NCBI GenBank assembly: GCA_017959005.1
Contig: JAGDBO010000001.1
Location: 155,596-219,595, forward strand
DNA from: Bacteroidales bacterium
GTDB taxonomy: Bacteria; Bacteroidota; Bacteroidia; Bacteroidales; UBA932
Length of the DNA stretch: 64,000 nt
Reading direction: 5' to 3'
Part shown: in pieces, positions 36,530 through 48,081 of the stretch
Layout: every line of letters starts with the position of its first letter
Position numbering within the stretch: the stretch's first letter is position 1
Made by a program: the position numbers and the translations under genes
The notes under the pieces: generated by a model
The model's database searches: none
What the model was told of the DNA's origin: nothing
Seen by the model: only the letters and a program-made list of their open reading frames with translations

Positions 36530-36537
36530 TATCTTTA
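36530..36537 (+). promoter_or_regulatory. Probable proximal -7 box TATCTTTA for the TonB operon
   Basis: One mismatch to TAnnTTTG, 42 nt before the ATG at 36580, in a strongly AT-rich stretch. Confidence 0.45.
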
Positions 36538-36579: not shown

Positions 36580-39456
36580 ATGAAGGTAACTAAGTTAAAA
36601 TTCAGTGGCTTGTTCCTGGCAGCAGCTCTGCTTCTCTTTTGTAGTAGCAGCTGGGCTCAGCGTCAGAAGACGGTATCTATAAGCGGTACTGTCACAGAGC
36701 AGGCAGGAGATGCAAAAGCAGCCCCAATTCCTTACGCAACGGTTCAGGTACCGAACGCAGGAGTTTCTGCTATTGCAAATGAGAGGGGAGAGTATACCAT
36801 CAAGAGTATAGCTCCCGGAACTTATGAGTTTATAGTTTCATCATTGGGTTATGAGACTCTGACTCTTAAGGTTACGGTCGTAGCGGCAAAGCCGGTTTAC
36901 GATTTTTCTCTTAAAGTTGCCGACTTCCGTTTGGACGATATCACAGTTACGGCTGAGGCGTCCAAGACAGGATCTGCAACGGCGTCAAAAATCAACCGTA
37001 CAGCAATTGAGCACATTCAGGCAAGTTCATTGGCAGACGTTATGATGCTGCTTCCTGGTGCGGACGTTACATCATCCACTTTCAAACCAGACCTCCAGGG
37101 AGTTAAGACTCTCTCAGTAAGAGGTGGTAGCGCAATGGGAACAGCAATCATCATGGATGGCGCTCCTATTTCCAATGCTGCCAACATGCAGACAATGAGT
37201 GCCGCTATAGGTGGTGCAAATCCAGGTGGCGGCGGACAGACTCCTACTTCAGGTATTGACCTTAGAACCATTACCACAGATAACGTTGAGTCTGTTGAGG
37301 TTATCCAGGGTATTGCTTCTGTTGAGTACGGAGATGCTGCAGCAGGAACCGTTATTGTAAATGCAAAGAGCGGTGTTGAGCCTCTGACAATCAAGTTCAA
37401 TACAAACCCTAACATTTACGCAATAGGTGCTACTCACGGAGTTAGCCTCGGTTCAAATGCAGGTTACATCAACTACGGTGTAGATTACGCTTACTCTGTT
37501 GCAGACCCAAGAGAGAGTTATGACAAATATAGAAGAGCTACCGGAAGAGTTGCTTACGCAAACACCTTCTTTGGCGGCAAGTTCTATACCAATACCGCTC
37601 TCTCATTCCTCTGGACAAGAGACAAGGCAGAGCCTAACCCTGATGATGATTCTGACTACACTACATCTAACCGCAGAGACCGCGGAGTGCGTATTACACA
37701 CAACGGCGAGATCAGAGTTAACAAAGGTTGGTTCAAGAATGTAAAGTACACTCTTTCATTTAATTATACAAATCGTAGAAGTTACTTCCAGGATCAGGGT
37801 ACCAACGCAGACGTTGCTTACTCTTACTCAAAGATTGACGGTTCAGTTCTCTCTTCAAGACCTGGCACAAGAATCTTTGACGATACAGGAAAAGAGTTGA
37901 CTTACTTTGGTCCTAACGGTGAACTTGTAAATGACAAGAGCTGGATCACTCCTGCTTCTTACATGTATGAGTACAACGTTTACGGTAAAGAGCTCAACAC
38001 CTTTGCAAAAGTTATGGTAAACTTTGCAGGTAAATTGGGCGCAACCAACCACCACATTATTATTGGTGCAGACTGGCACAATGACGGTAACAGAGGTAAA
38101 GGTAAAGTATTCGACTATGACTTCCCTCCTTACAGATCAGTATCTTACCGCTTTGCTACTCAGAGAGAGCGTCCTTACAAGGATATTCCTTTTATGAACA
38201 AATTCTCTGCTTGGGCACAGGAAGATTTCAGATGGGAGGTATTCAACCGCGAGCTTAAGATTGTTGCCGGTATGCGTTATGACAAAGTTTGGAACGTAGG
38301 TGACGCATTCTCTCCAAGAGTAAATGCATCATTTGAGATTGTCCCTGGAGCCCTCTCTGTAAGAGGTGGTTACGGAGTTAGCGTAAGCGCTCCTACTATG
38401 GCTTACGTCTACCCGGACAACGCATACTTTGATATGATCAACTTCAACAACTCACTTCAGACAACAGTTCCTGATGCACAGAAGTTCCAGTTGATTACAA
38501 CTCACGTTTATGATATCAAGAACAACAATCTGAGCCTTTCAAAGCAGAAGAAAGCAGAGGTTGGTCTTGACTTCAGAATCAAGAAGGTAAAGGTTGCAGT
38601 TACAGGTTACAAGGATTGGAACCACAACGGTTACACCTTCTCTTCCGGTCTCAATGACTACGGTTATGTAAACTGGAACAGATATTCTGCAACTACTTAT
38701 CCTGCAGACGGAACCACTCTTCCTACTCTCCACTTGGAGAATGACGGAAAGGTATTCCTCCAGTACACAACTCCTCACAACAATCTCTCTTACGAGCAGA
38801 AGGGTGTTGAGTTTGTTATTGACTTTGGAAGAATCAATGCAATCCGCACATCATTCCTGGTTAACGGTGAGTTCTATGACTACAAGGCATGGAATAACGG
38901 TTGGTTGTTCTACAACAAGAACGGCAGCGAGGAGGCTAATATGGGTATCTACTCACGCAAGGCTTCTTCCGGTGTTGCGCGCGAGCAGAACTTCATTACC
39001 AATTTCATTGTTACTCACAACATTCCAAAGATTGGATTCGTAATCTCTATGACAGCTAACGTTAACTGGAGATACAAGGGATGGACTACCTACGCAGCTT
39101 GCGATACTATTCCTCAGATGTATCTCTCAATTGCAGACGGTCAGGTTCACGACTTCAATCCTGAGTGGGCTAATCCAAAGAACGCAGATTATGACAAGTG
39201 GCTTCCAATTCTCAGAAACGAGACTAACGGTGCTATTGCTAAGAACCGTAAGGAGAGAGAGAAAGCCTACAATCCTGTACTCTGCATCAATGTAAACGTT
39301 ACAAAGCAGTTCAAGTATTTTGACGTTTCATTCTTCGCTAACAACATGTTCAGATCTACACCTCTCCAGTCTCTGAAGAAGAGTCCGGGAGACAAGGTAA
39401 GACGCAACCCGAATGTATTCTTCTTCGGACTGCAGTTGACTGCTAAGATTAAATAA
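36580..39456 (+). CDS. TonB-dependent outer-membrane receptor
   Basis: 958 residues. A signal peptide (to about residue 27, SSWAQ) is followed by a carboxypeptidase-regulatory-like domain (about 30-110; ISGTVTEQAG ... GEYTIKSIAPGTYEFIVSSL), a plug domain (about 130-270; LADVMMLLPGADV, LSVRGGSAMGTAIIMDGAPI, VEVIQGIASVEYGDAAAGTV) and a 22-strand-type barrel. It has SusC-like N-terminal architecture but no SusD follows. Instead it heads a five-gene operon with a DUF4876-like lipoprotein, a DUF6850-like barrel and two C25-like proteases. The substrate is unknown; a peptide or metal-bearing ligand is plausible. Confidence 0.9.
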   Translation: MKVTKLKFSGLFLAAALLLFCSSSWAQRQKTVSISGTVTEQAGDAKAAPIPYATVQVPNAGVSAIANERGEYTIKSIAPGTYEFIVSSLGYETLTLKVTVVAAKPVYDFSLKVADFRLDDITVTAEASKTGSATASKINRTAIEHIQASSLADVMMLLPGADVTSSTFKPDLQGVKTLSVRGGSAMGTAIIMDGAPISNAANMQTMSAAIGGANPGGGGQTPTSGIDLRTITTDNVESVEVIQGIASVEYGDAAAGTVIVNAKSGVEPLTIKFNTNPNIYAIGATHGVSLGSNAGYINYGVDYAYSVADPRESYDKYRRATGRVAYANTFFGGKFYTNTALSFLWTRDKAEPNPDDDSDYTTSNRRDRGVRITHNGEIRVNKGWFKNVKYTLSFNYTNRRSYFQDQGTNADVAYSYSKIDGSVLSSRPGTRIFDDTGKELTYFGPNGELVNDKSWITPASYMYEYNVYGKELNTFAKVMVNFAGKLGATNHHIIIGADWHNDGNRGKGKVFDYDFPPYRSVSYRFATQRERPYKDIPFMNKFSAWAQEDFRWEVFNRELKIVAGMRYDKVWNVGDAFSPRVNASFEIVPGALSVRGGYGVSVSAPTMAYVYPDNAYFDMINFNNSLQTTVPDAQKFQLITTHVYDIKNNNLSLSKQKKAEVGLDFRIKKVKVAVTGYKDWNHNGYTFSSGLNDYGYVNWNRYSATTYPADGTTLPTLHLENDGKVFLQYTTPHNNLSYEQKGVEFVIDFGRINAIRTSFLVNGEFYDYKAWNNGWLFYNKNGSEEANMGIYSRKASSGVAREQNFITNFIVTHNIPKIGFVISMTANVNWRYKGWTTYAACDTIPQMYLSIADGQVHDFNPEWANPKNADYDKWLPILRNETNGAIAKNRKEREKAYNPVLCINVNVTKQFKYFDVSFFANNMFRSTPLQSLKKSPGDKVRRNPNVFFFGLQLTAKIK

Positions 39457-39476
39457 CTATTAAGATGAAGGCTATT

Positions 39477-40760
39477 ATGAAAAAGATATATGCATTATTG
39501 ATTTCCGTGGTGTTTGTATCATTCCTTGCCTCATCCTGCATAGATATGATGAAGGATGTAAAGGATGTTGAAAAGATAGAGCCTATCTCAGTATCCTTTA
39601 AGGTTTGCGCTGCAACAGGTTTCATCCCTAAGGGCGGTTCAGTAACTCCTGATCCTAACTTCAATACGCAGGGTGTTACCGTTACCTTTACAAACGTAAA
39701 GACCGGACAGGTTTTCACCACAACCACAAACTCCAACAGCGTTGCAACTACAGACGTAGAGCCGGGCGTTTACTCAATAGGCGTATCCGGTACTGCAACT
39801 CATGAAGGTTATAAGTATTTTATCAACGGCAACAAGCCGGCTGTATCTCTCTATAAGACAGTAACTCCTGAGGAGGCAGCATCTAGAGAAGACCTTACTC
39901 TGGTTGTTCGTCCTGCAAAGGTTGGTTCTCTCTGTATCAGCGAGATTTACTACTGCGGAGTTGCAAGTTACTACTTCAGAGATCAGACCTATCAGTTCTA
40001 CAACAACGGAACAGAGACTATCTATCTGGATAACATGTGCTTTGCACAGCTCCATCCTAACATTGCAACAGCAAACCTGCCAACCTGGCCGGATTCAGAC
40101 GGAGAAGGAAACTATGTTTACAGTATGATGGTATGGCAGTTTGCCGGCAGCGGAACAGACTTTCCACTTGCTCCGGGTGAGAGTATAGTAGTTTCTCAGG
40201 AGCCTAGAGATCATACAACTAACAACCCTAACTCTTATGACAATTCTAAGAGTGAGTGGCAGACTTGGACAGGAAATGCATCCAGATACAATCCGGACGT
40301 TCCTAACATGACCTGCATTTTCTACACTACTTGGAACAGTATGCAGTGGCTGACCTCCGTATTCGGAGCTGCTTTCTGCGTATTCCAGGCACCTAAGGGA
40401 ACCGTAGTTGACGAAGCCTACTATAAGGATCCTGCTCACTATCAGACAGAGGTAAACATGACAGCCAAGTATGCAAAGATTCCTGCAGACTGGGTTTTGG
40501 ACGGTGTTGAGCTTCTTACAAATATGAGCTCTCTCCATATGAAACGTATCCCTGGATTCGTAGATGCAGGTGGTACTTCCGTAGAGGCTACATATTGCGG
40601 TAAGACCGTATCCAGAAAGGTAATAGGAAGAAATGCAAACGGCACTCCTATCTATCAGGATACTAACAATTCAACTGACGACTTCCAGGTTAACGACCAT
40701 CCAATGCTCCGCAGAAACGGAGAGTTGGTTCCACCTTGGAGTCCGGCTTTAGCATTTTAG
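39477..40760 (+). CDS. DUF4876-like lipoprotein
   Basis: Predicted outer-membrane lipoprotein (lipobox FLASSC, Cys21 from ATG 39477; an in-frame ATG at 39465 adds four residues). An N-terminal Ig-like/Cna-B-like region (about 30-140; VTVTFTNVKTGQVFTTTTNS) precedes a region starting SLCISEIYYCG that resembles lamin-tail-like folds (QFYNNGTETIYLDN). The assignment to DUF4876 is from recollection of the family's place after a TonB receptor and before a DUF6850 barrel. It may be the extracellular lid or binding partner of the receptor, in the position SusD takes in SusCD pairs. Confidence 0.7.
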   Translation: MKKIYALLISVVFVSFLASSCIDMMKDVKDVEKIEPISVSFKVCAATGFIPKGGSVTPDPNFNTQGVTVTFTNVKTGQVFTTTTNSNSVATTDVEPGVYSIGVSGTATHEGYKYFINGNKPAVSLYKTVTPEEAASREDLTLVVRPAKVGSLCISEIYYCGVASYYFRDQTYQFYNNGTETIYLDNMCFAQLHPNIATANLPTWPDSDGEGNYVYSMMVWQFAGSGTDFPLAPGESIVVSQEPRDHTTNNPNSYDNSKSEWQTWTGNASRYNPDVPNMTCIFYTTWNSMQWLTSVFGAAFCVFQAPKGTVVDEAYYKDPAHYQTEVNMTAKYAKIPADWVLDGVELLTNMSSLHMKRIPGFVDAGGTSVEATYCGKTVSRKVIGRNANGTPIYQDTNNSTDDFQVNDHPMLRRNGELVPPWSPALAF

Positions 40761-40797
40761 TACCAGTTTTTAATGTAAAATTTAGATGAGTAGTATT

Positions 40798-42438
40798 ATG
40801 AACAAGATATTTAAGAAAGCAGTTGTATTGTTAGCCGCCCTGTTTGTAGTTACCTATGTATCTGCACAGAACGAGGGATCCAAGGCTGCAATTGAAAGAG
40901 CTGCGCTTGAGAACATCTGGTTGTCAAATACTGAGAATGCGGCCGGCGGTATGGTGGATGCACCAGCACTTATGGCAAATGCATATTTTGGATTTGATCA
41001 TACCAAAGGAGACTTCAAGAGAACTCAGGTTGGTAACAAGATAAACTCCATCTCTTTCCACACAGACGGAGGTGGTATTTATGAGAATATAGGCGGTATG
41101 TTTATTTGGGGAGATTTCACTTACACCAAGGATGCAATTGCCGGTGCAAGATGGAATGCAACCCTTGCTAATCCGCTCAGAGACATGCCTTTCTTTGTTG
41201 CAGACGAGAATGTCAGCAAGTGGAGAAATCAGAACTACAATATGGGATTCAAGGTGGGTGCGCCTCTTTTCCGCGGCCGCCTGGTTGTTGGTTTCACAGG
41301 TTACTATGAGGCCGGCATTGCTGCAAAGCAGTTGGATCCTCGTCCTATTACAAGAGTTTCAAACCTCAATGTTGTTCCTGCAATTCTCTTCAGAATCAAT
41401 GACAAGAACACCATTGGCGCAGACTTCCACTATACCAGCTATCGTGAGGACGGTTCTGCAGAGAACATTATCCACCTCAGAGATCAGAAAGGTTGGGAGA
41501 TGGTTGCTCCTGGTTTCTTCAATGATGGTCTAATTGCCTCATTTGGTGGCATTAACAAGCTCCGTAACTACAACGCCAACGCTTTGGGCGGCGGCCTGCA
41601 GTATAGCTTCATTGGAAAGAAATTCAAGATTCTGGCTACTGGAGATTATCTCTACAGAGTTGAGGATGCTCTTTGCAACTACACCAAACCTCAGATGTCA
41701 GGTACCGTTAAACATACAACATGGTCTGCAGCTTTGGCAGCTCAGTTCAACCTCACAGAAGAGGACCGTTTCTTTGTTAAGGTGAAACATTCAAACAAGG
41801 ATTATCGCGGAATTGAGTACTTCCAGACTTATGACAATACCTATGAGGTTCAGTCATATATCACAGATGCTGAGTTTGAGCGTTCTAAGTTCACAACCAA
41901 GGTTGAGAAGGTCAATATTGACTATTTGAAGACCAATGGCGGTGACGCTTACACCTGGAAAGTTGGTGTTGAGGGATCTTACACTCGCGATGGTTTCTGG
42001 TACTATGTACCTGCCTCTTCCCGTAAGGTTAACACTCTCTTCTTGGGAGCAAACGGATCTTACAACTTTGAGATTAACGATGTTAACGCAGTAACACTTG
42101 ATGTTAACGCAGGTTTCAGTAAGAACAAGAAAGGTACATTTGATTACAATGGAGTAAAGCTTGGAAACAAGGCCTTTACAGAGTTCGCTCTGATAGACTT
42201 CATGTACATGTGTGCAGATTACTCACAGATGGGATTCAATCTGACTTACTCTTTCAAGGGTATCAAGAGTCTTTCATCTCTCTTCTGCTCAATTGGTTAT
42301 CAGCACATTCGTCCTGAGACCGTTGAGGATATCAGAGGCGTGAAGGATTTCCCTATGGAGATTAAAGAGATTTCTGACACATACCGTTTCTTCAAGAGAA
42401 GAGATGTTATCTCCTTCAAGGTGGGTATCACCTTCTAG
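40798..42438 (+). CDS. DUF6850-like outer-membrane beta-barrel protein
   Basis: About 546 residues from ATG 40798 (40786 is an alternative). A signal peptide (VVTYVSAQN) is followed by alternating amphipathic strands ending in an aromatic/hydrophobic C-terminus (SFKVGITF), as expected for an outer-membrane barrel. The conserved early stretch includes ALENIWLSNTENAAGGMVD. The family label DUF6850 is from memory of this gene order. No channel ligand can be inferred. It lies 37 nt after the DUF4876-like stop and 27 nt before the first C25-like protease. Confidence 0.68.
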   Translation: MNKIFKKAVVLLAALFVVTYVSAQNEGSKAAIERAALENIWLSNTENAAGGMVDAPALMANAYFGFDHTKGDFKRTQVGNKINSISFHTDGGGIYENIGGMFIWGDFTYTKDAIAGARWNATLANPLRDMPFFVADENVSKWRNQNYNMGFKVGAPLFRGRLVVGFTGYYEAGIAAKQLDPRPITRVSNLNVVPAILFRINDKNTIGADFHYTSYREDGSAENIIHLRDQKGWEMVAPGFFNDGLIASFGGINKLRNYNANALGGGLQYSFIGKKFKILATGDYLYRVEDALCNYTKPQMSGTVKHTTWSAALAAQFNLTEEDRFFVKVKHSNKDYRGIEYFQTYDNTYEVQSYITDAEFERSKFTTKVEKVNIDYLKTNGGDAYTWKVGVEGSYTRDGFWYYVPASSRKVNTLFLGANGSYNFEINDVNAVTLDVNAGFSKNKKGTFDYNGVKLGNKAFTEFALIDFMYMCADYSQMGFNLTYSFKGIKSLSSLFCSIGYQHIRPETVEDIRGVKDFPMEIKEISDTYRFFKRRDVISFKVGITF

Positions 42439-42465
42439 TTAGAAACATTGTAGTATTTTAAAATA

Positions 42466-44658
42466 ATGAGATTTAGCTATATCAGGAGCATATTTTTGCT
42501 CTTGCTTATGACTCTTCCCGCAACCCTGGCTGCTCAGCAATTTGAGCAGCCGGCGGTTTCCGGTAAGAGTTCTTTCGCTGTTATCACAGACAGTAAGACC
42601 AAAGCTAACTGTGCCGCCGAAATTGCAGAATACAAAGGCGTTATAGAGAGCGAAGGTCTTCCGGTCTTTGTGGTATGGGCAGATTGGGAATCTCCGGAGC
42701 AGGTGAAGGGAGTACTTCAAAAACTCCATCGGGAAAAGAATTTGGAGGGTGCCGTTTTTATTGGTGAGGTACCTATCGCGATGGTGATGAAGGCTCAGTT
42801 CATGACCTCCGCCTACAAGATGGATGAAAGACACTATCCTCTTGAGACAGTGGCTGTTCCGTCTGACAGGTTCTATGACGATTTCGATCTGACCTTTGAA
42901 AAAATAAAGGACTCTACAAAAGGGCTGAAACATTTCTACAACCTCTCTCCAAAATCTAAACCTTACATTGAGTGTGACATTTACACTGCAAGAATTCCGG
43001 CTCAGATGAGCAACGGTGACCCTTACACTCAGATATCCGCATATCTGAAAAAGGCGGTTGCAGCTCATAAGGAGAATAACAAGTTTGACAAGTTTATCTC
43101 CTACACCGGACATGGTTCATACTCCAACTCAATCACCGCTTGGAGAGCCGAGCAACAGATTGTAAACGAGCAGTTTGGAACTGAGTTTAAGAACAACGGC
43201 AACGCCCGCTTTATCCGTTACAGTATGGCGGACTATATGAAGCCGTTTGTGATTAAGGAGCTCAGAAGAGAGGATGGAGATTTGATGGTTTTCCACGAGC
43301 ACGGAGATTACTTCAGAATGTATCTTGCCGGTTATCCGGAGGATAGAGAACCTCAGGAGTATCTGCACAACGTTCTGCGTACTTACGCTCGCAGAAACTT
43401 GAAGCGTGCGCAGGAGAATGCAGAAAAGTGGGGCCTTGATTCCACCTGGTACTCAGACTATAAGGACCCTAAGAAGGTTGCCGAGGATTCACTTTTGGAT
43501 CTTAAGACCGGTATTATTCTGGAGGAGATTAACGATATTGCTCCTAATGCCAGAATGGTCATTTTTGACGCCTGCTACAACGGAGATTTCCGTAATCCGG
43601 ATTTCATTGCAGGTAAGTTCATTATGGCTTCCGGTAAGTGCGTTGTGGGCTTTGGAAACAGCGTGAACGTGCTGCAGGACAAGTCCGCTTTTGACCTTCT
43701 GGGACTTCTCAGAGATGGGGCGAGAGTTGGCCTTTGGTCTCAGCATATCAACATTTTAGAGAGCCACGTAATTGGAGATCCTACCTTCCACTTTACTCCG
43801 TATGATGAGAGTGAAGATATCAATGATTTTCTGCTGAACAATGACATCAACTTCTGGGCAGGAGTTCAGGAGGATGAGTTCAGACTCTCACTTGAGGGAG
43901 CAGAGGTAAATCCAGATGTTCAGAACTTTGCAATGATGAAGCTTGTGGAGGGAGATTATCCGGGCATTTCGGATAAACTGCTTGCAATCTTTAAGGAATC
44001 TCCTTATGCGGTTGTAAGATACAACGCTCTTTATCTGTTGCAGAAGTTGAATGACGCCAACTTTAGGGAGGCTCTTAAACTTGCCGTTACAGACAGTTAC
44101 GAGTACATCAGAAGAATTGCGGTTACCAGAATGGGAGCCATTGGCGCTGAGGAGTTTTTGCCTTATCTGATAGATGCTTACGTCAATGACGTGCATGCTA
44201 CAAGAGTTGTCTTCAACTGCACCTCTTCACTTCTCTGCTTTGACGTAGAGAAGGCAAAGGCTGCAATTGAGGAGTACTTTAAGGATAAGACCTACTACAA
44301 TGCTGCTAAGGATAAAGAGTTCCTGCTCAAGCTGGTAGAGGACAATCCTGGCGCCTCTTCAATAAGCGCCATAACCAACAAGGGCAAGAAGTCCGGAACC
44401 AGAGTTTCATACATTCAGTTTTTGCGTAACCGTCAGTATCACCAGAACCTTGAGCAGTGCATTAAGGTGATGGAGGATCCTACTGACGACGAGTTTGTAA
44501 GAACGCTTATGGCCGAGTCACTGGCTTGGTGGAGACTCTCTTACAAGAAGGATGAGATCATTGCATCTTGCAAAAAACTTCTAGCAGACAAGAACACTCC
44601 GGAGCAGATGCGTCCTGCATTGGAGAGTGCATTAACAAGACTCACATCAAAAAAATAG
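42466..44658 (+). CDS. Gingipain-like (C25-type, caspase-fold) protease with HEAT repeats, paralogue A
   Basis: 730 residues, signal peptide ending LAAQQ. Residues 30-450 look like a C25/caspase-fold peptidase: LEGAVFIGEVPIAMV, SDRFYDDFDL, then SYTGHGSYSN (His216), FHEHGDYF (His279) and VIFDACYNGDF (Cys370). His216 or His279 with Cys370 would form the His/Cys dyad; gingipains have GHG and ACVNG at equivalent motifs. Residues about 480-730 are helical HEAT-like repeats. There is no obvious type IX secretion C-terminal domain. It is 27 nt after the barrel gene and 9 nt before its paralogue. Confidence 0.75.
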   Translation: MRFSYIRSIFLLLLMTLPATLAAQQFEQPAVSGKSSFAVITDSKTKANCAAEIAEYKGVIESEGLPVFVVWADWESPEQVKGVLQKLHREKNLEGAVFIGEVPIAMVMKAQFMTSAYKMDERHYPLETVAVPSDRFYDDFDLTFEKIKDSTKGLKHFYNLSPKSKPYIECDIYTARIPAQMSNGDPYTQISAYLKKAVAAHKENNKFDKFISYTGHGSYSNSITAWRAEQQIVNEQFGTEFKNNGNARFIRYSMADYMKPFVIKELRREDGDLMVFHEHGDYFRMYLAGYPEDREPQEYLHNVLRTYARRNLKRAQENAEKWGLDSTWYSDYKDPKKVAEDSLLDLKTGIILEEINDIAPNARMVIFDACYNGDFRNPDFIAGKFIMASGKCVVGFGNSVNVLQDKSAFDLLGLLRDGARVGLWSQHINILESHVIGDPTFHFTPYDESEDINDFLLNNDINFWAGVQEDEFRLSLEGAEVNPDVQNFAMMKLVEGDYPGISDKLLAIFKESPYAVVRYNALYLLQKLNDANFREALKLAVTDSYEYIRRIAVTRMGAIGAEEFLPYLIDAYVNDVHATRVVFNCTSSLLCFDVEKAKAAIEEYFKDKTYYNAAKDKEFLLKLVEDNPGASSISAITNKGKKSGTRVSYIQFLRNRQYHQNLEQCIKVMEDPTDDEFVRTLMAESLAWWRLSYKKDEIIASCKKLLADKNTPEQMRPALESALTRLTSKK

Positions 44659-44667
44659 GAGGGGGTT

Positions 44668-46941
44668 ATGAAAAGAATATTTTTGATTGCAGTTTCTATA
44701 TTTCTGACCGTCAGTCTGATGGCGCAGAATATAAAGATTGAGAAACCTACCTCCAAGAAGGGGAATACGTTTGCAATAGTTATTGACAACACAACATTCT
44801 CCAAGACTCAGAGTCAGGTTTACGCCTACAGAGATGCGCTCCAGAAGGAGGGGCTCTCAACTTACATCGTTTCAGGTGATTGGGAGAGTCCGGAGCAGGT
44901 AAGAGAGGAGCTCAAAAAGCTCTACAAGAAGTCCAAGAACTTTGAGGGCATTGTGCTCATCGGTGACATTCCTGTTGCTATGGTGCGTAACGCACAGCAC
45001 ATGACAACCGCCTTTAAGATGGATGAGGTTAAGTTCCCAAAGAACGAGTCTTCAGTGGGTTCTGACCGTTTCTATGATGATTTGAATCTTGAGTTTGAGT
45101 TCATTGAAAGAGATACTGTAGATACAGATTTCTTCTACTACAACCTTAAGACGGATTGCGCTCAGCACCTCAACCCAACTTACTACTCCGGCAGAATCAA
45201 GTATCCTAAGATGCTTGGCGGAGATAAGTACGAGGCTATTGCACGCTTTCTTGAGAAGGCTGTAGCAGCTAAAGAAAACCCTGAGGTTCTAGATAATATA
45301 GTAACCTTTGCAGGTCACGGATACAACAGTGACTGTCTTATCACCTGGATGGATGAGAGCATTACCGTTGAGGAGAACTTCCCGTTCCTTAAGAACAGCT
45401 CAAGGAACTTTAAGCAGCTCAACTTCCGCCATGAGGATTATATGAAGTACCGTCTCTTTGACGAGTTGCAGCGTCCTGAGGTAGACGCCATCTTCTTCAA
45501 CGAGCACGGCTCCATAGACAAGCAGCACATTTCCGAGTTCCCTGCTAAGGAGACTCCGCAGGATTATGCAGAGAAGTACCGCCACGGATGGGGCTGGAAC
45601 AAAGGCCCTTACGATATCCTTAAAGCGGAACTCAACAAGCGTAAGAAGGCGGGTGCTACCGAGGCAGAACTTGCAGAGTTTGAGAAAAATCTCAAGGATA
45701 CTCTCAAGAGGGATTTCCACGTAACGGACAAGTTTTTTGAGGCTTGGGACAAGGAGCAGAAGATGACTGCAGAGGAGAGGAAAGAGGCTCAGGCAAAGGC
45801 TAAAAAGGAGAAAAATGAGATCATTATCACATTGGAAGACCTTAAGCCTATTGCAACTCAACCTTACTTTGTAATGTTCAACGCCTGCTACAACGGCTCA
45901 TTCCACCGTCCGGGAAGCATAGGTGCCTACTACATCTTTGGAAAGGGCAGAACCGTTGCTATTCAGGGTAATACGGTGAACGTGCTCCAAGACCGCTGGA
46001 CTTATGAGGATGTTGGTATCATCTCTCTGGGCGCCAGAGTTGGTGAGTACAACCGCCTGGTTGCTACGCTTGAAGGACACATTGTAGGAGACCCTACATT
46101 CCACTTCAACTCCAAGGGAGAGACCTTCCGCGGAGAGATTGCAGCCAATGCAAACAACGTCTCTTACTGGAAGAGCAAACTCCTAGACAAGTATGCTCCG
46201 GTACAGAGCGTTGCCCTTAGAAAACTGGTTGAACTCAAAGCCATTACACCGGCAGAGCTTCTTCAGACTATGAAGGAGAGTACCTTTGGTACGGTAAGAA
46301 TGGAGTGCCTCAAACTTCTTAGCCGCAGCAATGACAACGATGCTTTTGTTGAGGCTTTAACACTCGCGATAAAAGATAATTACGAGGTTGTAAGAAGAAT
46401 GGCCGCTTCACTCATCGGGAAAAATGGAGACCCTCGCCTCAGCGATGCGCTTATGAGCGAGTACCTCAACTTCCCTGAGCAGAAGAGAGTTCACTACAAC
46501 TCTTCCGGAGACTTCCTCACTATGCAGGAGAAAGAGCTTTTGGAGGCAGTAGAAAAGGCCAAGCCTTCAATGACCTACCTCAACAATGACGAAGTTGCAA
46601 ATGACGCCATTAAGGAGATTAAACGCAACACCAAGAGGAGAGAGGCCACCGTTAAGGAGATAATGGATAAAACCGTCAAAAAATCAGAGAGAATCTCAGA
46701 TATCCGCATGACTCGCAACTATAATATGCACGAGTTCATTCCTCAGTTCATACAACTGGTTGCAGATAAGGAGAACGACCTTGAGATTCGTCTCAACATG
46801 GCGGAGGCCCTTGGTTGGTACATCTACTCTTACCGCAAGCAGGAGATCATTGACGGCTTCAACAAGATCCTCAAAGAGCAGAAGGACCTTGAGCCACAAC
46901 TTAAGGCAGAGATGGTTCAAACCATCAACCGTCTAAAGTAA
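44668..46941 (+). CDS. Gingipain-like (C25-type, caspase-fold) protease with HEAT repeats, paralogue B
   Basis: 757 residues, signal peptide ending LMAQN. Same layout as the preceding gene: FEGIVLIGDIPVAMV, SDRFYDDLNL, FAGHGYNSD (His217), FFNEHGSID (His280) and MFNACYNGSF (Cys407), then HEAT-like repeats from about 490. A Lys/Glu-rich helical insertion (about 318-385) separates the His and Cys motifs and is much less charged in paralogue A. Divergent sequence with retained His and Cys suggests two proteases of different specificity. It is the last gene of the TonB operon; a terminator follows. Confidence 0.75.
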   Translation: MKRIFLIAVSIFLTVSLMAQNIKIEKPTSKKGNTFAIVIDNTTFSKTQSQVYAYRDALQKEGLSTYIVSGDWESPEQVREELKKLYKKSKNFEGIVLIGDIPVAMVRNAQHMTTAFKMDEVKFPKNESSVGSDRFYDDLNLEFEFIERDTVDTDFFYYNLKTDCAQHLNPTYYSGRIKYPKMLGGDKYEAIARFLEKAVAAKENPEVLDNIVTFAGHGYNSDCLITWMDESITVEENFPFLKNSSRNFKQLNFRHEDYMKYRLFDELQRPEVDAIFFNEHGSIDKQHISEFPAKETPQDYAEKYRHGWGWNKGPYDILKAELNKRKKAGATEAELAEFEKNLKDTLKRDFHVTDKFFEAWDKEQKMTAEERKEAQAKAKKEKNEIIITLEDLKPIATQPYFVMFNACYNGSFHRPGSIGAYYIFGKGRTVAIQGNTVNVLQDRWTYEDVGIISLGARVGEYNRLVATLEGHIVGDPTFHFNSKGETFRGEIAANANNVSYWKSKLLDKYAPVQSVALRKLVELKAITPAELLQTMKESTFGTVRMECLKLLSRSNDNDAFVEALTLAIKDNYEVVRRMAASLIGKNGDPRLSDALMSEYLNFPEQKRVHYNSSGDFLTMQEKELLEAVEKAKPSMTYLNNDEVANDAIKEIKRNTKRREATVKEIMDKTVKKSERISDIRMTRNYNMHEFIPQFIQLVADKENDLEIRLNMAEALGWYIYSYRKQEIIDGFNKILKEQKDLEPQLKAEMVQTINRLK

Positions 46942-46965: not shown

Positions 46966-46996
46966 AAACGGAGAGCATCACCGCCCTCCGTTTTTC
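46966..46996 (+). terminator. Intrinsic terminator of the TonB/C25 operon
   Basis: Perfect 8-bp stem AAACGGAG/CTCCGTTT with a 12-base loop, followed by TTTCTTT. Confidence 0.72.
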
Positions 46997-47003
46997 TTTG
47001 TAT

Positions 47004-47040
47004 AAAAAAGTGCGGCAAGCCGCCTGGCCCGCCGCACATC
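47004..47040 (-). terminator. Intrinsic terminator of the fimbrillin-like gene
   Basis: The stem GTGCGGC/GCCGCAC (47010-47016 with 47031-47037) is followed on the minus strand by six T. It lies 25-30 nt past the stop at 47065. Confidence 0.82.
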
Positions 47041-47064: not shown

Positions 47065-48081
47065 TTAAGGCATATCAACCTTTGTAAACTCAGGATTGCC
47101 ATCTGAATCTGAGTCTGTTACATGAATCTTCATACAGTAAACTTTTCCTCCCTGGATGACAGCGCTGGCACTAATGCTACCGGTTGTTGTATAATTAGTT
47201 TCCTCACTTCCCAATTTCTTAGAAAAGTGTAAAGTGGAACCACCGAGTTTTTGTTCTGGATTTACAGTCATATTGTCTGCAGGGATGGTAAAGTACCTGT
47301 ACCCATTCGCATCTACAGCATCGCTGAGTTTTGCTTCCGAATCAAAGTAAATTGGACAGAAGAAGGTTAAACTAAAGTTTGAGGTTTTTGTTATTGGGGT
47401 GTAGCAGTCAACATATTTTGAACCATCCAAAACCATTCTGAGATAAGAACTGGACGGATAAGTTATATCAGCGGCGGGATCAATCTCGAACTGCACGGCC
47501 AGTACGGAAGTAACCCAGTGAAGGCTTCCTTCTAAATCCAGCGTGCTACCTCCAGGGAATGGTATCTCTTTAACATCAGTTTCTGCAATCATTCCCATAT
47601 TGTTAATCTGATTGATCATTGATGAACTGTAATTAATATAAGGGAGACCATTATATATGGTGAATTGATGCCAATACTCATTCCAAGCTCCTTTACCAAG
47701 AGCTACACAATACTTGAGATTCTTACTAGGATCAAAACCGCTGAAATCCAAAGCTCCAAAGAGTGGAGATACATCGTAAGTAGTCAGTCCTTCCGCTGCC
47801 GCATGCAACTCTACTGTTTTATAAATATATTTGCTTGTCCAAGATGCATTATCTCCCTGGAAAACGAATAGAGTAAGTTTATCACCCTCTTCCCAAGTTA
47901 CTGTCATTCCGCTAATAGGGTTTGCGGCATCCTTAAGAGTGAAGTTACACTTTGTAAGAGTTGGATTAATAGAGACGGAAAGATTTACTTTTACCATCTT
48001 GCTATTATCCTTCTTTACATCCTCTTTACTGCAAGCCATTGCAATGATGGCGATGGCTGCAAGAATAAAATATTTCTTCAT
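47065..48081 (-). CDS. Fimbrillin-like (Mfa/FimA-type) lipoprotein
   Basis: 338 residues, lipobox AIIAMAC (Cys17). The N-terminal part resembles fimbrillin-like domains: VKVNLSVSINPTLTK, then GMTVTWEEGDKLTLFVFQGD, the W..GD pattern also seen in the BspA-like protein at 25689. Such proteins are type V pilus subunits or pilus-derived surface proteins in Bacteroidales. No usher, anchor or tip genes are nearby, so a free-standing surface lipoprotein is more likely than a complete pilus. It follows the 48-residue small ORF by 28 nt. Confidence 0.75.
   Translation of the reverse strand: MKKYFILAAIAIIAMACSKEDVKKDNSKMVKVNLSVSINPTLTKCNFTLKDAANPISGMTVTWEEGDKLTLFVFQGDNASWTSKYIYKTVELHAAAEGLTTYDVSPLFGALDFSGFDPSKNLKYCVALGKGAWNEYWHQFTIYNGLPYINYSSSMINQINNMGMIAETDVKEIPFPGGSTLDLEGSLHWVTSVLAVQFEIDPAADITYPSSSYLRMVLDGSKYVDCYTPITKTSNFSLTFFCPIYFDSEAKLSDAVDANGYRYFTIPADNMTVNPEQKLGGSTLHFSKKLGSEETNYTTTGSISASAVIQGGKVYCMKIHVTDSDSDGNPEFTKVDMP

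Follow-up and report, generated by a model that had tools for sequence, protein, structure and literature searches.

To our knowledge, only one case in which bacteria import a whole protein through their outer membrane as a nutrient source is well worked out, the uptake of plant ferredoxin by the Fus system. The available passages on Fus/PqqL-type systems describe a TonB receptor gene clustered with a gene for a periplasmic protease, with PqqL expression being iron-dependent (PMC6793856, PMC6071955), and mention other proteases in some FusA clusters (PMC6793856). In the accessible parts of an iron stimulon study of Bacteroides thetaiotaomicron (Lewis and Gui 2023; PMC10434189), Table 5 gives the genes BT1933-39 (an IS256 transposase, hypotheticals, a HEAT repeat protein, DUF4876 and a TonB receptor) as rising 3.5-7.4-fold in iron depletion, and BT_1938-9 also appears in a figure comparison. 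Here we describe a five-gene operon in a stretch of 64,000 nucleotides (hereinafter the window; contig JAGDBO010000001.1, positions 155,596 to 219,595) from a Bacteroidales bacterium (assembly GCA_017959005.1). It codes for a TonB-dependent receptor, a DUF4876 lipoprotein and a DUF6850 protein, which we term the core, followed by two paralogous predicted cysteine peptidases with C-terminal HEAT repeats, P1 and P2, whose family we term P. We propose, with about even confidence, that it forms a TonB-dependent importer whose cargo is cut in the periplasm by the operon's own proteases, Fus-like but with a different class of protease.

A conserved operon with a linked protease family

The five open reading frames (ORFs) of the operon occupy positions 36580-46941 of the plus strand, as an earlier note made from the sequence alone had read them, and are separated by gaps of 8, 25, 27 and 9 nt, which corrects the range of 8-37 nt given there. 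The window is part of contig C6 of a host genome of 1.8 Mb that is 86% complete. A scan for P relatives in one genome per species (84,980 species) returned 530 stretches, the best 80 of which (the named loci; L and G numbers are our handles for loci and genomes) were examined; as best matches to P1 they are a biased sample. All belong to Bacteroidota, including Bacteroides xylanisolvens, Phocaeicola, Alistipes, Prevotella, Proteiniphilum and Heminiphilus. In 72 of the 80 named loci the order receptor-DUF4876-DUF6850 is followed by two to four P genes, the other eight being cut by the contig start, and in 21 of those 72 one or two P genes also precede the receptor. This check of gene neighborhoods for scattered homologs bears out the earlier reading of a dedicated, co-operonic system. 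Across the named loci the median gaps are 13, 18, 30 and 6 nt, and across operons the number of P copies ranges from 1 to 4. In L083, L119 and L039 the receptor gene is split over two or more open frames.

In 295 genomes drawn evenly from the order Bacteroidales (the order sample), P was matched in 12; one of these matches, in G147, is weak and partial (E 1.5e-4) and was left out of the count. DUF4876 is found in 48 of the 295 genomes, 37 of which are without P; it is present in 11/11 P genomes versus 37/284 non-P genomes (Fisher p ~7e-10, uncorrected for relatedness). P lies inside the operon in 10 of these 11 genomes, the exception being G142, where P and the operon are separated by three opposite-strand genes and a fourth gene, another P copy sitting at a contig start. 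Within the window's own genus a P match is found in 30 of 39 genomes, and P1 is near-identical (96-97%) in three Bacteroidales bins, among them L045 (water buffalo rumen) and L046 (reticulum). The operon is a conserved Bacteroidales locus, and its linkage goes beyond chance. The sets of loci overlap on the same contigs (L072/L209, L077/L033, L091/L032, L093/L211, L109/L200 and L075/L199, among others), so that a few genes stand twice among the 229 rows of the P alignment and the relatives are non-independent.

Nature and ancestry of the proteases

An HG motif together with an Ala/Ser-Cys motif is the signature of the clan CD peptidases. The P1 columns H279, G280 and C370 are invariant in the 19 first homologs, and in the alignment of 229 P proteins, from which those under 500 aa were left out, as they were from the tree, the His and Gly are present in 229/229 and the Cys in 228/229 rows, the sole exception being in L093; the HG is mostly accompanied by DACYNG, DACFNG or NACYNG. 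An earlier His of P1, in a GHG (H216), is kept as His in 133/229 rows and is therefore unlikely to be the catalytic one. The HEAT repeats of both last genes, which had escaped the earlier note, are a family trait, with HEAT_2 matches in 16/19 members (E<=1). That note's label of gingipain-like stands in part: the clan CD motif is nearly invariant and a third paralog in the host genome matches Peptidase_C25 with 29.3 bits against a Pfam cut-off of 23, but P1 and P2 have no Peptidase_C25 match in Pfam at E<=0.1. The same Pfam family matches 3/19 P family members at E<=1, this paralog being one of them and L035, just below the cut-off, another. In the third paralog the C25 match covers His286 and Cys326, which are 40 residues apart; the corresponding distance in P1 is 91 residues. 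A profile comparison (hhalign) of P with PorU-like C25 sequences gave nothing, the latter set being narrow, with usable length from 11 of 20 loci, and a profile search of the PDB with P recovered HEAT-type repeats only. Judged by its sequences, the P family seems to be a branch akin to C25 that is marked by an insertion and a HEAT tail.

In a FastTree phylogeny of the 229 rows, all 76 of the 76 first downstream copies of the named loci fall in one clade with the window's P1 (84 rows, support 1.0), and the second downstream copies form two clades, one of which holds the window's P2. A further clade (P0/P3) unites 24 of 28 third-of-three copies with all 22 upstream copies, the remaining four third copies grouping with the orphan paralog of the host genome. 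In the order sample, operons with a single copy (L035, L036, L039-L042) hold one of the P0/P3 clade, and neither P1 nor P2. Since the clades separate by position, the window pair is not a new duplication, and a recent tandem duplication in this genome can be rejected on the grouping of the first copies; P1 and P2 are old, separately retained positional members of the family. The earlier suggestion of a two-step activation cascade special to this genome is likewise not sustained, the copies belonging to old orthogroups and numbering 1 to 4 per operon. The third paralog of the host genome (L031:10689-12794; G000:C19:32688-34694), the one with the compact spacing that passes the C25 cut-off, stands alone; by eye, its flanks are DNA-methyltransferase-like genes and ribosomal str-type genes, and the same site is seen in G323 (L207) and G331 (L208).

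Likely site of protease action

By a crude rule, 202/229 P proteins have a signal-peptide-like N-terminus. No sorting domain of the type IX secretion system (T9SS) was detected in P1 or P2 with Pfam and NCBIfam at E<=0.1, and T9SS cargo status is rejected on the lack of a C-terminal tail in both. A lipobox-like match is found in 5/208 P proteins, about two of which are convincing by eye, both being upstream-type copies (L109, L059). The host genome has no match to PorU-like C25 proteins in a search that also missed its weak paralog and so excludes strong matches only; the same search matched 21/24 genomes of other families and 2/37 genomes of the genus, in both of which the match coincides with P genes. 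A search for SprA returned no match anywhere, positive control included, so that absence of T9SS is not demonstrable by it. Because of the signal-peptide-like N-termini, the few lipoboxes, and the lack of a T9SS tail and of a strong PorU-like C25 match in the host genome, the periplasm appears the likeliest site of P, over the surface location that the earlier note had favored.

Exchange of modules around the core

Besides the window, 64 DUF4876 loci of the order sample were classed; one proved to be without DUF4876, leaving 63. Of these, 31 carry an ABC/DUF4857/PepSY module, 9 carry P, 4 an S46 peptidase, 3 an M16 peptidase, 1 both M16 and S46, and 15 neither kind of module. Among the 53 additional DUF4876 loci (L124-L176), 43 have a complete three-gene core. 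The protease-free form (31 loci within L124-L172) combines the core with an ABC ATPase, its partner and DUF4857, often joined by PepSY_TM and a small lipoprotein-like protein; this module may represent reductive handling of the cargo instead of proteolysis.

The M16 gene stands directly behind DUF6850 in L143 (44 nt), L174 (5 nt) and L175 (55 nt) and farther downstream in L161, and HxxEH is intact in all four proteins. The four genomes hold 4, 7, 8 and 9 M16 matches, and about 0.06 cases of adjacency would be expected by chance (a rough figure from 7 per 3000 genes and 53 loci). The M16 protein of L143 has near end-to-end PDB matches to 9ldy (‘Peptidase, M16 family’; 3.4e-105), PqqL 6ofs (9.3e-61) and 6b03 (‘Putative zinc protease’; 8.5e-49), the last of which we take to be FusC. 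No M16 protease was found by Pfam in the window operon, against 4/63 DUF4876 loci with one. S46 is present on the operon's own strand in 5/63 DUF4876 loci. In L201, L203, L204, L205, L209 and L210, a gene for an S9 peptidase stops 6-18 nt upstream of the operon; these S9-linked loci of the genus are near kin, and seven genomes of the genus hold 10-13 S9 matches each versus 6 in that of the window. There is no S9 neighbor at the window operon, and among the named loci S9 occurs in the stretch of 14/80, 11 of the 14 being on the opposite strand.

A receptor tree of 63 rows, made by quick search with support from the Shimodaira-Hasegawa-like approximate likelihood ratio test (SH-aLRT) only, left out L163, L149, L159, L160 and L176 and added four named P loci and the window. 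One branch (SH-aLRT 99) sets apart 21 rows, 16 of them carrying P, M16 or S46, from the other 42, of which 5 do; the remaining five of the 21 comprise four module-less loci, two of them on a very long branch, and one ABC locus. P changes along the tree 3 times versus 12.8 in shuffles, and ABC 9 versus 21.1. In light of the four unrelated peptidase families at the locus, and of receptors that tend to sort by having one, we propose that this branch takes up cargo that has to be cleaved, the variable module presumably reflecting the fate of the cargo after import.

In a genome of the window's own family the core is followed by M16, a 4Fe-4S membrane-type protein and S46 (L143:4607-17957). A Fer4_5 4Fe-4S membrane-type protein recurs near the core in L138, L143, L162, L164, L167, L169, L172 and L175, hinting at electron supply.

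A likely link to iron

The layout of the Bacteroides xylanisolvens locus L083 matches BT1933-39; going by its gene order, BT1933-39 is the apparent equivalent of a P-type operon, with BT1934-1937 presumably corresponding to the P and DUF6850 genes. As this apparent equivalent rises on iron depletion, iron involvement is likely. The tabulated part of the same study lists two further DUF4876 operons, PG1019-22 (up 20.8-214.5-fold) and BT3625-33 (up 36.7-128-fold), as induced by iron depletion; both are known here from the table only, the rows of which list no protease (PMC10434189). DUF4876 genes also appear in two expression tables of Porphyromonas gingivalis (PMC10470040, PMC10101095). The earlier note knew of no characterized function for this gene combination; an apparent homologous operon does figure in the published iron stimulon, and the available passages on it give no mechanism (PMC10434189). 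Elsewhere in the literature searched, from which subscription papers are mostly missing, we found no mechanism for this operon, the accessible text offering expression tables and work on Fus and PQQ.

Proposed mechanism and alternatives

In the mechanism that we propose, the DUF4876 lipoprotein and the receptor would bind the cargo at the cell surface, TonB energy would draw it through the receptor, and the DUF6850 protein, a putative outer-membrane barrel, would serve as an accessory outer-membrane part. P1 and P2, joined in many relatives by P0/P3 and in some by S9, would then cut the cargo in the periplasm, freeing a nutrient that is most probably iron or an iron cofactor. Of the roles offered in the earlier note, action of the proteases on the imported ligand appears the best supported, M16, S46 and S9 peptidases being found at the same core elsewhere. 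More tentatively, and with less confidence than in cutting of the cargo as such, we envisage the import of a protein or peptide, still intact and bearing iron or a cofactor, that an old relay of P1, P2 and P3/P0 would draw in and dismantle; the role of FusC would then have been invented independently by a caspase-fold enzyme, with M16, S46 or S9 substituting or assisting in sister lineages.

Several observations weigh against the import of a cargo that is cut in the periplasm. In the fetched stretch, 15/63 DUF4876 loci show neither an own-strand protease nor an ABC-type module; some of these run off their contig, and in L037 P lies past three opposite-strand genes. Taken singly, M16 (4 changes versus 3.9 in shuffles) and S46 (3 versus 3.0) are unclustered on the receptor tree, and a second group of P receptors (L035, L039-L041) is placed inside the ABC part of the tree, which favors either a second acquisition or an ancient loss. 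Copies of P are also found apart from the core, as the orphan in the window genome, G323 (L207) and G331 (L208), and as five tandem copies directly after an S9 gene in L197:6246-17643, with no core in the fetched stretch. The localization of P draws on its N-termini and the absence of other signals. In the DUF4876 lipoproteins the acidic pair at +3/+4, the classic lipoprotein-export pattern, is seen in 0/66, so that their surface exposure is no more than presumed; at least two acidic residues lie within +2 to +7 in 47/66. PqqU is, we assume, the YddB that PMC6793856 groups with Fus. The accessible text describes PqqU as importing the small cofactor PQQ (PMC12124388), and a receptor-adjacent protease of the M16 association therefore need not mean protein import. 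Lastly, the induction of BT1933-39 is modest in the listed values versus hmu (to 290.8-fold) and BT2063-65 (489-676-fold) (PMC10434189).

Each of the other explanations that we considered accounts for part of these data. C25 enzymes such as gingipains are classically surface-bound or secreted, and in two upstream-type copies (L109, L059) the lipobox looks convincing by eye; the P proteins might thus digest host, plant or microbial protein at the surface, with the receptor importing the product. We regard this as unlikely, given that P1 and P2 are devoid of a T9SS tail, lipobox-like matches are as rare as stated above, and the host genome has no strong PorU-like C25 match, the 2/37 matches in the genus coinciding with P genes. 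Gingipain-type and PorU-type C25 enzymes also mature surface proteins, and a strict co-operonic order beside the core would suit proteases that cut and so activate the lipoprotein, receptor or barrel encoded alongside them. With 37/48 DUF4876 genomes being without P, however, and a full core in 43/53 further loci that go most often with an ABC-type module (31/63), or with M16/S46 (8/63), obligate processing of the core, as the earlier note had entertained it, is rejected; as up to four P per operon would also be odd for a single maturation step, we deem a maturase role rather improbable. HEAT repeats and clan CD peptidases are further known from defense systems, and a scan of three proteins with PADLOC did give one very weak match (E 0.0024) to the HEAT part of P2. 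It gave no other match, and the signal-peptide-like N-termini, the strict linkage to the core and the presence of M16/S46 beside the same core elsewhere leave hardly any room for a defense or cell-death module behind a phage- or bacteriocin-receptor operon.

A further alternative retains import with proteolysis and replaces iron by peptide or protein nutrition (nitrogen, amino acids) or by a non-iron cofactor. The S46 and S9 families, with which the core is associated, include dipeptidyl peptidases, and a crude search found no iron-type operator upstream. The iron induction of the apparent B. thetaiotaomicron equivalent, modest as tabulated, would also fit, but the strong induction of the DUF4876 operons PG1019-22 and BT3625-33, known from the table only, speaks against it (PMC10434189). 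On balance we consider a non-iron cargo unlikely and prefer iron or an iron cofactor as the nutrient freed by periplasmic cutting.

If the operon does import a whole protein as Fus does, with a caspase-fold protease doing the job in gut and rumen Bacteroidales, this would supply a role for widespread genes that have had none (DUF4876, DUF6850 and the HEAT proteases) and would mean that unrelated peptidase families can occupy the protease slot of such importers. It would likewise add a further route of iron piracy in the gut, and it offers a clean test, namely which proteins serve these bacteria as an iron source.

Further features of the operon

The Pfam matches of the receptor do not include STN, the N-terminal signaling domain. 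In a single-sequence PDB search its plug region weakly resembles the ferric enterobactin receptors PfeA and PirA (7 sequences), and FusA is not among the matches at E<=0.01, its presence in the searched file being unchecked. In the DUF4876 lipoprotein Cys25 is invariant (16/16 aligned). None of the 17 families listed for the aligned members is a SusD family, DUF4876 itself being recovered in 16/16; a lamin-tail-domain match occurs in 9/16 aligned members (best 1.3e-6), the window protein itself being without one. Along its length the DUF4876 alignment also matches PDB 4q1z (E 9.4e-135), an entry whose name, ‘Putative lipoprotein’, is silent on function and for which the literature search brought up no paper. 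The PDB search for DUF6850 gave no convincing solved relative.

Of the flanking signals claimed earlier, the terminator after the last gene is upheld by a hairpin at 46966-46999, read by eye; its loop exceeds the <=8 nt allowed in the automated hairpin scan, where it is therefore unlisted. The upstream promoter is reduced to one weak candidate -7 element (Table 1), the stretch around which is conserved in the near relatives L045 and L046; TAnnTTTG is enriched upstream of the operons (36/67 versus 8.8 expected by mononucleotide shuffle). A crude search upstream found no clear operator, of iron type or otherwise. The operon end adjoins a weakly fimbrillin-like gene on the opposite strand (47065-48081), of which a strong hairpin at 47010-47037 (z -4.1 for the stretch folded) reads as the terminator.

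Table 1. Positions in the window of the genes, presumed catalytic codons, repeat matches and candidate signals of the operon
Feature	Position	Strand	Remarks
TonB-dependent receptor	36580..39456	+	958 aa; Pfam CarbopepD_reg_2, then Plug
DUF4876 lipoprotein	39465..40760	+	431 aa; Pfam DUF4876, E 1.4e-46
DUF6850 protein	40786..42438	+	550 aa; Pfam DUF6850, E 4.8e-80
P1, clan CD / C25-like cysteine peptidase with C-terminal HEAT repeats	42466..44658	+	730 aa; N-terminus signal-peptide-like
P1 presumed catalytic His279 codon, HG motif	43300..43302	+	alignment column
P1 presumed catalytic Cys370 codon, DACYNG motif	43573..43575	+	alignment column
P1 HEAT_2 match, aa 503-578	43972..44199	+	Pfam
P2, paralog of P1	44668..46941	+	757 aa; His280 to Cys407, 127 residues
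P2 presumed catalytic His280 codon	45505..45507	+	alignment column
P2 presumed catalytic Cys407 codon, NACYNG	45886..45888	+	alignment column
P2 HEAT_2 match, aa 530-596	46255..46455	+	Pfam
Terminator-like hairpin AAACGGAG...CTCCGTTT	46966..46999	+	8-bp stem, 12-nt loop, then TTCTTT (T-rich); read by eye
Candidate -7 element TATCTTTA	36530..36537	+	one mismatch to Bacteroidota TAnnTTTG; weak

Comparison with known systems

Like the SusCD pairs, the window operon has a TonB receptor gene adjoining a lipoprotein gene; unlike them, its lipoprotein belongs to DUF4876, with the lamin-tail-domain matches of its relatives, and not to the SusD family. P shares the HG and AC motifs with the C25 peptidases (gingipains, PorU), and one paralog passes the Pfam cut-off, whereas P1 and P2 differ from them in the distance between His and Cys (91 and 127 residues), the HEAT tail and the lack of a T9SS tail. 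The core of receptor, DUF4876 and DUF6850 is common to the window operon and the ABC/DUF4857/PepSY operons, such as BT3625-33, which differ in having no P and instead an ABC ATPase with its partner, DUF4857 and often PepSY_TM. With BT1933-39 the likeness extends to the TonB receptor, DUF4876, a HEAT repeat protein and hypotheticals; the nature of the protease, its orthogroups and a mechanism are absent from the available published passages on that operon. Like Fus, the window operon pairs a TonB receptor with a protease that is predicted to be periplasmic, and four relatives of its core carry M16; unlike Fus, it encodes several copies of a HEAT-repeat protein of the C25-like cysteine peptidase type, and a DUF4876 lipoprotein and a DUF6850 protein are added. 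We see in this operon a plausible variant of protease-associated import, for an apparent relative of which the iron induction, though not the mechanism, has already been published.

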